Shown here piece after piece: positions 22,466 through 61,889 of a DNA stretch of 64,000 nt (its first letter is position 1; each line of letters starts with the position of its first letter). The DNA comes from Pedosphaera sp. (lineage in GTDB: Bacteria; Verrucomicrobiota; Verrucomicrobiia; Limisphaerales; AAA164-E04): assembly GCA_002690655.1 (NCBI GenBank), contig NZFL01000001.1, positions 62,001 to 126,000 of the forward strand, read 5' to 3'. The position numbers and the translations under genes are program-made. The notes under the pieces are model-generated. The model was not told the origin of the DNA and ran no database searches. It saw only the letters and a list, made by a program, of their open reading frames with translations.

Positions 22466-23824
22466 TTATTTGTTTTGTGACTGAGAGCTTGGTTCACCTT
22501 CGTTTTGGAACGTGGCGGGGGATACATTTTTTTCAAGACAATACAAAAATTTTTCGCCCCGTAAGAATAGTTGATTTCCCACCAGTGCAGGCGAAGCACT
22601 GAAAACGTCGTTGAGTCGGTTTACCGAAAGAAGTTTCGAATCCTCCGCATTACTCATGACAAGAGTGATACCTTCACGACTCGTGATATAAATTCGATCA
22701 GCCGCACCGACTGGAGACGCGAATAGAACCCTGACCAATGGCAACCGATAGGGACCACCCAGGGGTTCGCCTGTCATGAGATCCACGCAGGATAGAATTC
22801 CCTGAAGATGCCTGAGAAAATAAAGTTTCTTGCCATAGAGCAGCGGACTGGGAACATAAGGAGTCAAGCGGTTCATACTCCAGACAATTTGATTCGTATC
22901 TGTTAAATCACCAGTGGCACCTTCAAGCCGTATCGCCAGCATGGCTTGCCAGTCGTAACTGTTGGATGCCACCAGCAGACCATGGCCGGCAACAGGAGTT
23001 GCAACCACATTGCGAGAAAGACCACCGCATTCCCATATTACTTTCCCGGTCAGCAAATCATATGATCGGATTTTACCCGTCGCACTCACAATGACCTGAG
23101 GCTTACCAGACTCCTCAACGATCAAGGGCGTGGACCACGAAGTTGACTCATTTCGCGATACTTTCCATATCTCACTACCATTCGATTTATCCAAACAATA
23201 TACAGCTGACTCTCCCTCGTGATCCCAGTTCACGATCAGTCGATCATCATGTAAAACAGGCGAGGAGCCTTCCCCATGAGCGTGACGAGTCTGCATTTGA
23301 CCGAAGTCACGTTCCCATATGAGATCACCCTGCATGTTCAATCCGTAAAGACCATGCGACCCGAAAGACACGATGACATGCTCCCCATCCGTGACGGGCG
23401 AGGCTGAGGCTAAACTTCCGGTGTCATGACCGCCTTCATGCGGAAAGGTGCGATGCAGATCACGTTGATAACGGAGAGAACCATTCTGACGATTGTAAGC
23501 CAGCATACTGAATAAATGGTCTTTTGATACAGGGAGGTTGTCATGAGCGCCATCAGCTTGATTGTGAATGGGTGGCTTTTCAGGTCCAACAGGAATCGCG
23601 CAAGACACGAAAACGGTATCCTTCCATACGACAGGAGTCGAATGCCCCTTTCCGGGAAGCGAGGATTTCCACCGCATATTTGAATCCTCCGACCATTTCA
23701 CCGGAGGATTGGCTTTGGGCCCAACCCCATTGTTCAAGGGTCCGCGCCATTGCGGCCAGTACAACAAAGGGTCCTCTGCTGCAAGTGACCCGCAAAAAAA
23801 AACCAATAGCACAAGCCACTTCAT
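22466..23824 (-). CDS. PQQ-like beta-propeller repeat protein, secreted
   Basis: Signal peptide MKWLVLLVFFCGSLAAE; YWPQWRGPLNNGVGPKANPPVKWSEDSNMRWKSSLPGKGHSTPVVWKDTVFVS; start trimmed to 23824. Confidence 0.9.
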   Translation of the reverse strand: MKWLVLLVFFCGSLAAEDPLLYWPQWRGPLNNGVGPKANPPVKWSEDSNMRWKSSLPGKGHSTPVVWKDTVFVSCAIPVGPEKPPIHNQADGAHDNLPVSKDHLFSMLAYNRQNGSLRYQRDLHRTFPHEGGHDTGSLASASPVTDGEHVIVSFGSHGLYGLNMQGDLIWERDFGQMQTRHAHGEGSSPVLHDDRLIVNWDHEGESAVYCLDKSNGSEIWKVSRNESTSWSTPLIVEESGKPQVIVSATGKIRSYDLLTGKVIWECGGLSRNVVATPVAGHGLLVASNSYDWQAMLAIRLEGATGDLTDTNQIVWSMNRLTPYVPSPLLYGKKLYFLRHLQGILSCVDLMTGEPLGGPYRLPLVRVLFASPVGAADRIYITSREGITLVMSNAEDSKLLSVNRLNDVFSASPALVGNQLFLRGEKFLYCLEKNVSPATFQNEGEPSSQSQNK

Positions 23825-24795
23825 TTGGAATGGGTCCCGACTATTTCTTCTTTTTGTAATCTCTCCAGCGACAGTAAGTTGGATACATAGGTCCATGATC
23901 CCATATGCAAATGCTCAGCCGTCCATTTGAGAGACATGGTTGTTCGTTTTCGTATTTCAGCAGCCAGCTTGATTTTAACTGGATCGCCTTTACGCATTTG
24001 TTTTAGATGAGAAACAGAAAGCTTTTCTCTGCGCAAGAGTTCCTTGAGCAAGTCCATGGCTTTCATTCTCTGCGATTCCCTGAAAATGACTCCTGACTGA
24101 GCTTCATTTTCGTCCGCTGCGGCATCTAATTTTACCAGAAGCTCCCTTCGATTGGCTTCTTCCCCATAGAACCAGCCTTTTCGAATGGCCTCGTAGTCTT
24201 GAAGCGAGCCAGCAAGTTCTTGTAGTTTCCTGTCTTCCATTAACAGTTCGAAGCGATGACGACCGGACATATTATCCGTTTGAACACCTTTTTCTGCCAT
24301 CAATGGACGTGGTTCCAGCCAGATGGGACGCTGAGTGGGTTCAAGAAGATAGAGCGGATAACTGCTCCAAGGGTAATCTTTGAGTGCCTGCTCCCGAGTT
24401 AATAGATTGGAACGTACAGGATTCAAGTGAATGTAGTCGCAAACCTTGTGCAGATATCCCGTATTGCTTCCGTCGACGATCAAAGATTTGTATCGACCTG
24501 CAAAAAGGTGGCCTACGCGCTTATGCCGTTTGTTAAAACGGGTGGAGTAGGTTCCAAGAAGCCATTTCATACCCGCAACCAGATTGGGCTGAGGTGTTTC
24601 AAGACAGAGATGAAAATGATTGCCCATCAAGCAGAATGCGGTAACACGCCAGCCTGTTTTTTCGCAAGTTTCCCCTAATGCCTTGATGAACATTTTGCGA
24701 TCCTTTGCATCCAGAAAGATGTCTTGCTTGCCATTGCCGCGGCTCATCAAATGATAAACAGCCCCAGCATATTCGACACGGAGTTTTCGAGCCAT
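23821..24795 (-). CDS. RAYT/IS200-like Y1 transposase (REP-associated tyrosine transposase family)
   Basis: MARKLRVEYAGAVYHLMSRGNGKQDIF; HUH motif GNHFHLCLETP; YSTRFNKRHKRVGHLFAGRYKSLIV; YIHLNPVRSNL; YPWSSY. Confidence 0.93.
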   Translation of the reverse strand: MARKLRVEYAGAVYHLMSRGNGKQDIFLDAKDRKMFIKALGETCEKTGWRVTAFCLMGNHFHLCLETPQPNLVAGMKWLLGTYSTRFNKRHKRVGHLFAGRYKSLIVDGSNTGYLHKVCDYIHLNPVRSNLLTREQALKDYPWSSYPLYLLEPTQRPIWLEPRPLMAEKGVQTDNMSGRHRFELLMEDRKLQELAGSLQDYEAIRKGWFYGEEANRRELLVKLDAAADENEAQSGVIFRESQRMKAMDLLKELLRREKLSVSHLKQMRKGDPVKIKLAAEIRKRTTMSLKWTAEHLHMGSWTYVSNLLSLERLQKEEIVGTHSK

Positions 24796-24826
24796 GAGAA
24801 TAAATTACTACTCAGCGGACCAGGTG

Positions 24827-24848
24827 TCAATAGTTAGGACTGACCCTT
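24827..24848. repeat. REP-like half-site upstream of the RAYT gene
   Basis: tcaatagttaggactgaccctt matches tcaatagtagggactgacccT (reverse complement of the left arm of the 60740-60791 element) with one 1-nt shift. Confidence 0.6.
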
Positions 24849-59313: not shown

Positions 59314-60684
59314 TCAACCCCAGAATTCTCTGGGATCGGTGACTTTACCCGTCAATGCACTCGCTGCAACTGTAGCGGGTGAAGCCAGAAAAACCTGAGA
59401 TTCCTTGTGCCCCATGCGACCAGGGAAATTGCGGTTTGTGGCACTGATGCACTTCATGGGTTTATTCATTCGCCCAAAAGTATCTACAGGTCCGCCAAGA
59501 CAAGCCGAGCAACCGGCATTCTCCGTCATCTGCACACCAGCTTCCGTCAAAATATTCCAGACACTGTTTCCATTCCACTGGGTGGTTTTTAGGTCGTCTA
59601 CAATTTCAGGAGTCGCAGGCACGCCGAACGTATCGATTTTCACCGATTTACCTTTGATAATGTGGGCGAAGGCAAGGAAATCACTTGTTTTACCACCTGT
59701 GCATGAACCAATGTAGGCGCGGTCCAAGGCTAGATCACTCATCTCTTTCGCCAACTTGCGATTACCGGGATCCGGATGACAAGCGACGGTCGGTTCCAAT
59801 TTGCTCAGATCCACAGTCAAATCGGAAAAAAACGTTTCGTCGGTATCACGCTCGACAGGCTCGTAAGATGAGCGAGTTCCGTTAAGAGCACATCGGTGGT
59901 CCACGTAAGCTTTGGTTTTTTCGTCAAATTCAAAAATTCCGTTCTTGCCTCCTGCTTCAATAGCCATGTTGGCAATGGTCATTCGATCATCAATTGTCAG
60001 ACTGGAAGCTCCCTGTCCATCAAATTGCATCGCTCGATAGGTGGCCCCATCAAAACCGATCTCACCAATCACATGAAGGATAATGTCCTTTGCCATCACG
60101 CCTGGCTGGATCTCACCTTCCAGGCGGAAATGCATTGTTTCGGGCACTTTGATCAGAAGTTTTCCAGTCCCCATGACGAAACCAGCATCGGTATTACCGA
60201 TGCCTGTTGCAAACTGGTTGAACGCTCCCGCCATACAAGTATGCGAGTCCGTGCCAAATAAAACTTCACCCGGGCGTGTATGGCCACGATGCGCCAGAGC
60301 AGTGTGGCAAACACCCGCATAATTCGAACCATATTGCTTCTTGAGCAAGCCCTGCGCCGGATTAAAGGCCCACTTTCCATCAGGGTCATCGATCACGTCG
60401 TAAAAGTAAGTAATGTCCTGCTCCTTCACGAAATCTCGAAGAATATCAACGTTCCGATTGGATCGAGAATCTGCAGTAAAGATGTAGTGGTCAGGAATAA
60501 TGACAATACGTTCCTTGTCCCATACTTTCGCTGTTTCTCCAAACTCACGCTTGAAAACACCGATTGTACCGGGTCCGCATACATCATGGGTCATCAGGGT
60601 ATCTGCCTTGACCCAAACATTATCACCTGCTTTGACTTGAGCCTTCCCTGAGGCTCGTGCCAGAATTTTTTCCGTCAACGTCAT
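59314..60684 (-). CDS. leuC: 3-isopropylmalate dehydratase large subunit
   Basis: THDVCGPG; IIPDHYIFTADSRSNRNVDILRDF; FGTDSHTCMAGAFNQFATGIGNTDAGFVMGTGKLLIKVPET; YIGSCTGGK; NRNFPGRMGHKESQVFLASPATVAASALTG. Confidence 0.92.
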   Translation of the reverse strand: MTLTEKILARASGKAQVKAGDNVWVKADTLMTHDVCGPGTIGVFKREFGETAKVWDKERIVIIPDHYIFTADSRSNRNVDILRDFVKEQDITYFYDVIDDPDGKWAFNPAQGLLKKQYGSNYAGVCHTALAHRGHTRPGEVLFGTDSHTCMAGAFNQFATGIGNTDAGFVMGTGKLLIKVPETMHFRLEGEIQPGVMAKDIILHVIGEIGFDGATYRAMQFDGQGASSLTIDDRMTIANMAIEAGGKNGIFEFDEKTKAYVDHRCALNGTRSSYEPVERDTDETFFSDLTVDLSKLEPTVACHPDPGNRKLAKEMSDLALDRAYIGSCTGGKTSDFLAFAHIIKGKSVKIDTFGVPATPEIVDDLKTTQWNGNSVWNILTEAGVQMTENAGCSACLGGPVDTFGRMNKPMKCISATNRNFPGRMGHKESQVFLASPATVAASALTGKVTDPREFWG

Positions 60685-60739: not shown

Positions 60740-60791
60740 AGGGTCAGTCCCTACTATTGATATTTTGAAATAAATGGTAGGAACTGACCCT
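60740..60791. repeat. REP/REPIN-like imperfect inverted repeat
   Basis: AGGGTCAGTCCCTACTATT - 14 nt - AATGGTAGGAACTGACCCT; arms match at 17 of 19 positions; motif shared with the site upstream of the RAYT gene. Confidence 0.75.
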
Positions 60792-60794
60792 TTT

Positions 60795-61889
60795 TTAGAA
60801 AAAGAGTAGTTCTTCTTCTGGCACTTTTATAATGACCTGCTGACCCACTTTCCACTGCATTTCACTTGTTTCACGGATGATGATCTTATGAGGTCCTGCT
60901 AATACATGCACAAAAATATCTGCTCCGGTAGGTTCCAACCACTGAATGCTACCTTTTATTAGAAGGGTTTTACTGGAGTCATGAGTGAGTAATTCATCTT
61001 CTTCCAGGAGATGACCCTGTTCAGGGCGAAACCCAATGACATGATGGACATTTTCCCCAATAACAACCTCTCCCGGTAATCTCAATATTCCAACGGAATC
61101 AGTACCAGGCAAGTGAGCTTGGTCTGTGATTTTAACAGAATGCAGTTTCAAAAGATTCATCGGAGGTGATCCTATGAAACTGGCGACAAATTGATTGACT
61201 GGTTTCCGATAGATAGTGAGGGGAGGCGCGACTTGTTGCAGGGAGCCATTATTCATCACCATGATCCGATCACCCATTGTCATTGCCTCAGCCTGATCAT
61301 GAGTCACGTAGATCATCGTTGAACCCAATTTGCGGTGAAGTTCCGTCAACTCCATTCGCATCTGAATTCGCATTCGGGCATCTAGATTGGATAACGGTTC
61401 ATCAAAAAGAAAAACCTTCGGTCTGCGAACAAGCGCACGACCAACAGCCACCCTCTGCCGTTGCCCACCCGAAAGTTGGTCAGGCATCCTATTCAGTAAA
61501 TCCTGAATACCGAGCATGACAGAAGCTTCTTCCACACGTTGTGCAATTTCAGGTTTGGGAAATTTTCTGAGTTTCAAACCAAGTGAAATATTTTCCAAGA
61601 CACTCATGTGAGGATACAGCGCGTAATTCTGAAAGACCATCGCGACATCCCTATCTTTCGGTTCAAGGTCGTTGACCTTGGTATCATCCATATGAATGGA
61701 ACCGCCATCAATCTCCTCCAGACCTGCAATCATTCTAAGCGTAGTGGTCTTGCCACAACCAGAGGGTCCAACCAGTACCATGAACTCGCCGTGGTTGATC
61801 TCCAGTGTCAAATTAGAGACAGCAGTAACTTTTGACTTTTTCGATCCAGTATAAAACTTGGACACATTTTGGAGTGAAACTTTAGCCAT
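60795..61889 (-). CDS. ABC transporter ATP-binding protein (UgpC/MalK-like sugar importer ATPase)
   Basis: [63 protein letters not shown]-like C-terminus. Confidence 0.95.

Follow-up and report, generated by a model that had tools for sequence, protein, structure and literature searches.

A palindrome between ABC ATPase and LeuC-like genes in a Pedosphaera genome is very probably a miniature TIR dimer of a TIRYT element

TIRYTs, or TIRtrons, were described by Di Nocera, De Gregorio and Rocco (2013; PMC3733652) as Y1 transposases bordered by terminal inverted repeats (TIRs), many of which carry GGGGWSAS; some of the TIR families are dispersed and moderately abundant, and occur as solo units or dimers. 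Most TIRYTs were later placed by Quentin et al. (2018; PMC6006769) in subclass 2.1 of TnpA-Y1, which was matched to Bertels group 1 and, among the non-IS subclasses of RAYT-like proteins, is the largest. No REP-like sequences were reported near subclass 2.1 genes in that study. The stretch of DNA analysed here (the window; 64,000 nt) is part of contig C33 of a Pedosphaera sp. genome (G000) of 4.08 Mb in 35 contigs that is 86.7% complete. A sequence-only reading had pointed to a palindrome at 60740–60791 as a REPIN-like, dispersed substrate of a resident RAYT. The observation is confirmed, and its interpretation is right in kind, with a correction in family and in tense: the palindrome is very probably a miniature inverted TIR dimer of a TIRYT element, the transposase of which is a Y1, HuH, single-tyrosine enzyme related to RAYTs, and the element in this genus is most likely a fossil.

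The left arm of the palindrome (60740–60758, + strand) was recognised by pattern match as one TIR unit, AGGGTCAGTCCCTACTATT, which continues with GATA. It is followed by a 14-nt spacer (60759–60772) and by an inverted TIR unit, the right arm (60773–60791, − strand), complementarity between the arms being 17/19. The hairpin begins 3 nt after the stop codon of an ABC ATPase gene (60795–61889, − strand) and lies 55 nt upstream of an aconitase-family (LeuC-like) gene (59314–60684, − strand); both the coordinates and the neighbours first given for this 19-bp inverted repeat were right. A 66-nt stretch with the palindrome folds as ssDNA at −13.7/−14.1 kcal/mol (z −4.8/−5.7), far beyond shuffled sequences on either strand, and none of 200 shuffles equalled it. 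An Rfam scan at the hairpin gave no family. A search of the whole window with up to three mismatches returned exactly three matches, at 60741–60758 (+ strand, 0 mismatches), 60773–60790 (− strand, 0 mismatches) and 24829–24846 (− strand, 2 mismatches), as compared with a mean of 0.09 in shuffles, none of which gave three. The claimed recurrence of the arm upstream of a RAYT-like gene was thereby borne out.

That gene (23821–24795, − strand) encodes a Y1/HuH transposase, 324 aa in length, that belongs to the TIRYT lineage; the gene is single-copy, and no other Y1 gene was found in the genome. The protein has a Pfam Y1_Tnp match, NHFH at 59–62 and YIHLNP at 121–126, and H60, H62 and Y121 are invariant in 20 sequences. 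The nearest PDB structure to its AlphaFold model (mean pLDDT 90) is 4ER8, the E. coli TnpA-REP with a REP hairpin, followed by ISDra2 and IS608/IS200; a PDB search by sequence gave no useful match. A C-terminal extension is present and is helical in the confident model, and no Pfam HTH match was obtained for it in 25 members. With the NCBIfam RAYT model NF047646 the protein scored 54.3 bits, below the cut-off of 80. The proposed resident RAYT is thus upheld by its Pfam match and its fold, but it is of the TIRYT type.

A single TIR unit, GGGTCAGTCCTAACTATTGACA, the left end of the former element, precedes the transposase start codon by 29 nt (24825–24846, − strand); it stands alone, with no palindrome or stem of its own. 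The place expected for the right TIR is occupied by a PQQ-type beta-propeller gene (22466–23824, − strand), the ATG of which overlaps the transposase stop codon (ATGA), and the neighbours of the transposase are this gene and an oxidoreductase. A right TIR was sought downstream of the transposase, and no significant partner was found in G000 or in the congeners G003 and G004. With the upstream unit only, the locus is a TIRtron derivative and not an intact TIRtron.

Genome-wide counts were obtained by pattern searches with the 22-nt family consensus GRGTCRGWCYYWACTATTGATA, allowing up to three mismatches, and the reversed pattern served as control. Fifteen matches were found in the Pedosphaera genome and none with the control, so that the motif is not confined to the two copies noted at first. 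Four congeners gave 0, 10, 16 and 8 matches (one in total with the control), and the five genomes of the genus pooled gave 49 matches against one. Two of the fifteen lie in a stretch of 1968 bases that two contigs (C1:110933–112900 and C14) share with 100% identity, reflecting either assembly redundancy or a recent duplication. When this stretch was counted once, paired matches were merged and a palindrome on C28 was added, 13 distinct sites were obtained. Tight palindromes are present on C33 (the window), C14, C19, C28 and C1, a looser pair is on C16, and the remaining sites are solo units; the paired-inverted architecture expected from the sequence-only reading is therefore real. So is the intergenic bias, 11 of the 13 sites lying outside genes, which is far from chance at a non-coding share of 6% (the window value) and even at 20%. 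Of the two exceptions, one overlaps the final codons of a gene (L118), and the other sits in frame within the N-terminal leader of a flavoprotein (L123).

The latter, a TIR dimer on C1 (L123:961–1011; the same on C14), lies in the leader of an HI0933-like flavoprotein and adds residues ahead of the FAD domain. Single units fold as RNA at only −1.6 to −4.1 kcal/mol, and the tetranucleotide position varies within the family (GTTG, GTTA, GTAG, GTGG or GTAA). A stricter gapped pattern, GGGTC...AAT, gave zero matches. Dispersed copies in the genome mostly end in GATA and the transposase-proximal copy ends in GACA; because of this difference, some of the dispersed copies may, judging from their sequence, have been made by another TIRYT that was lost.

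Transposase homologues were found in 63 of 97 genomes searched. In the 37 genomes where a close homologue was found (E < 1e-40) there are 164 motif copies, as compared with 34 in the 60 others (Mann-Whitney p 9e-6, about 1e-5, phylogeny uncorrected), whereas the reversed control gave 14 and 15 copies (p 0.40). The link persists outside the genus (p 2e-4, phylogeny uncorrected). In relatives from the same order, the unit precedes the start codon by ~30–60 nt, and its inverted counterpart is located no more than ~30 nt from the stop codon; TIR pairs bracketing the transposase gene outperformed 200 Markov shuffles in 15 of 28 such relatives. The motif thus accompanies related transposase genes, as had been expected. 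In a wider set covering many phyla, 27 of 65 loci outperformed 100 shuffles, 19 of them with a GGG[AT][CG][AG][CG] core; a few that lack the core, such as L218, may be due to chance. The transposase stop codon is often inside the right TIR in relatives (TGACCCC or TGAGGACTGACCCC, as in L150, L200, L214 and L226).

The complete element in relatives consists of GGGGTCAGT...TATTGACA, ~30 nt, the transposase gene and an inverted copy. Assignment of the window palindrome to such an element rests on the observed sequence family, its tie to the gene lineage, the two-sided TIRs of relatives and the vertically inherited sites. By analogy with known families, we infer that the copies were made by the transposase through a ssDNA mechanism: the HuH tyrosine enzyme would cut ssDNA at the TIRs, and TIR-TIR dimers and solo TIRs would presumably result, as proposed for RAYT/REPIN and IS200/IS605. 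Dimers could arise either by deletion of the gene between the TIRs or by joining of the ends. The window type, in which GGGTC is kept outside, would point to internal deletion. In one relative (G022, loci L228–L238), ~10 near-perfect palindromes of ~47 bp have GACCC and GGGTC abutted head-to-head, the reverse of the window arrangement; they look like joined element ends, and this abutted form would be as expected from end joining.

Formation of the palindrome as a classical REPIN by a canonical GTAG-type RAYT is improbable. The units are indeed paired and inverted, with an intergenic bias and a resident gene of the RAYT family, and the window arm, when read backwards, contains GTAG by coincidence (AATAGTAGGGACTGACCC). 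However, the tetranucleotide is unconserved in the family, single units form hardly any hairpin, the RAYT model score is below its cut-off, the sites number 13 and not hundreds, and the transposase genes of relatives are bracketed by TIRs. The REPIN-like character claimed for the palindrome therefore holds for its paired-inverted and mostly intergenic units, but these are of the TIR type and not of the GTAG REP/REPIN type.

If the palindrome were instead an intrinsic terminator of the ABC ATPase gene, or a hairpin at the 3' end of its mRNA, with only an incidental similarity to the transposase flank, this would account for the position 3 nt past the stop codon, the RNA fold of ~ −26 kcal/mol and a T6 run on the + strand. 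That run, however, is on the strand opposite to the ABC ATPase transcript and is unconserved in G003, and the unit recurs at 12 further sites, some of which separate divergent genes, as well as upstream of transposase genes; the hairpin was also absent from the output of a terminator scan, but its loop exceeds the limit of the scan. A terminator is hence very improbable as the origin of the palindrome, which may have a secondary RNA role. The remaining candidate, a site bound by a host regulator that also controls the transposase, is extremely improbable: inverted-repeat sites do lie upstream of genes at several loci, but the motif occurs on both sides of transposase genes across phyla, often overlapping the stop codon, and the genes flanking the sites have no evident common function.

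The preferred reading, a TIR dimer of a TIRYT element, leaves the question of its present state in the genus. The compared sites are orthologous among G000, G002 and G003. All ten are common to at least one sister species, with those on C9, C14, C27, C6, C16, C19 and C31 and the window site occupied in G003, and those on C9, C11, C16, C19, C31 and C28 in G002. One is absent from another species: the C28 palindrome (L126:1074–1124), ~44 nt beyond the 3' end of a bacterial small SRP RNA gene, is present in G000 and G002, and in G003 unrelated sequence is found instead. The presence/absence comparison proposed earlier thus yielded one missing site against a background of shared ones. At the place upstream of leuC that matches the window palindrome, G004 has a single unit, and G001, G005 and G007 have none. 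Three loci (C28, and C7 and C22 of G003) were examined for a clean empty site, and none was found; in G000 the counterpart of the G003 C7 unit is decayed, and the C22 locus has no match. The sites compared across sister species gave no sign of present mobility. The dispersed substrate claimed earlier is accordingly real as a motif that accompanies related transposases, but its copy number is low (13) and its compared sites are orthologous, so that the description fits the past better than the present.

At C19 (L121:1029–1077; orthologues L134 and L139), the two arms carry concerted changes that differ among G000, G002 and G003, which could be due to template-switch correction of a near-palindrome or to selection on the hairpin. 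The idea that compensatory arm change is general was dropped, as it was seen at C19 only, and in the window and C28 palindromes each change affects a single arm.

The transposase occupies the same locus in G000, G002 (where it is split over two contigs) and G003. In G004 the transposase (L024, on C427) adjoins the same hisA-like gene, with no PQQ gene in between. Comparison of the transposase between G000 and G003 gave dN 0.010, dS 0.118 and a ratio of 0.085 from few changes; the gene is under purifying selection. A right end is undetectable, the locus is single and the transposase is kept by selection; the element in the genus is most likely a fossil, with vertically inherited sites rather than units still jumping. 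A once-mobile TIRYT that is now immobile and conserved is the simplest reading of these sequences. The same features, a selected transposase with no right end, fixed at one locus, make a host role (domestication) plausible. More specifically, a TIRYT that has ceased to transpose (right end lost, ATGA coupling, one locus, purifying selection) might still process chromosomal TIR hairpins as a host ssDNA enzyme, a proposal that is tentative and rather doubtful. If it is true, the concordant arm changes at C19 would be a trace of enzyme action or of selection on the hairpin.

The analysis ties a RAYT-like lineage, subclass 2.1, to a dispersed repeat family with controls. It also gives a snapshot of a transposase that has become fixed and is under selection with its repeats still present, possibly a domesticated TIRYT, and helps to make a host role of RAYT-like enzymes testable outside Proteobacteria. 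Even if ordinary, the element accounts for a recurrent motif in Verrucomicrobiota genomes.

With IS200/IS605 elements (IS608, ISDra2) the system shares the HuH/Y1 core, but its ends are inverted repeats and not subterminal hairpins, it is single-copy and its neighbours are not tnpB. The REPIN/RAYT systems of Pseudomonas and E. coli (PMC3116915; 4ER8) are similar in catalytic fold and in paired, inverted intergenic units, as found on C33, C14, C19, C28 and C1. They differ in the GT[AG]G at the hairpin foot, which is unconserved here, in a stable single-unit hairpin, in RAYT model scores above 80 bits and in a large replicating population of hundreds, as compared with 13 distinct sites that, where compared, are orthologous across species. 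Subclass 2.1 (PMC6006769) is matched in the NH[YF]H and Y[IV]HLNP motifs, the long C-terminal extension, in this case with no Pfam HTH/DnaA_C match, and the low copy number; it was described as lacking REP-like sequences, whereas the present genes show a statistical association with a dispersed TIR family. The closest resemblance is to TIRYTs/TIRtrons (PMC3733652): the protein has the HuH motif and single catalytic tyrosine, its lineage is flanked by GGGGWSAS-type TIRs, the core of the window TIR is GGG(G)WSAS, and the TIR family is dispersed as solo units and dimers. The host is of the Verrucomicrobiota, a right TIR is undetectable at the window gene, and GGGTC is outside in the dimers here and inside in those of G022. 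The palindrome is thus a small genomic repeat of a known kind, here in Verrucomicrobiota, which matches the description in PMC3733652 and adds to that in PMC6006769.
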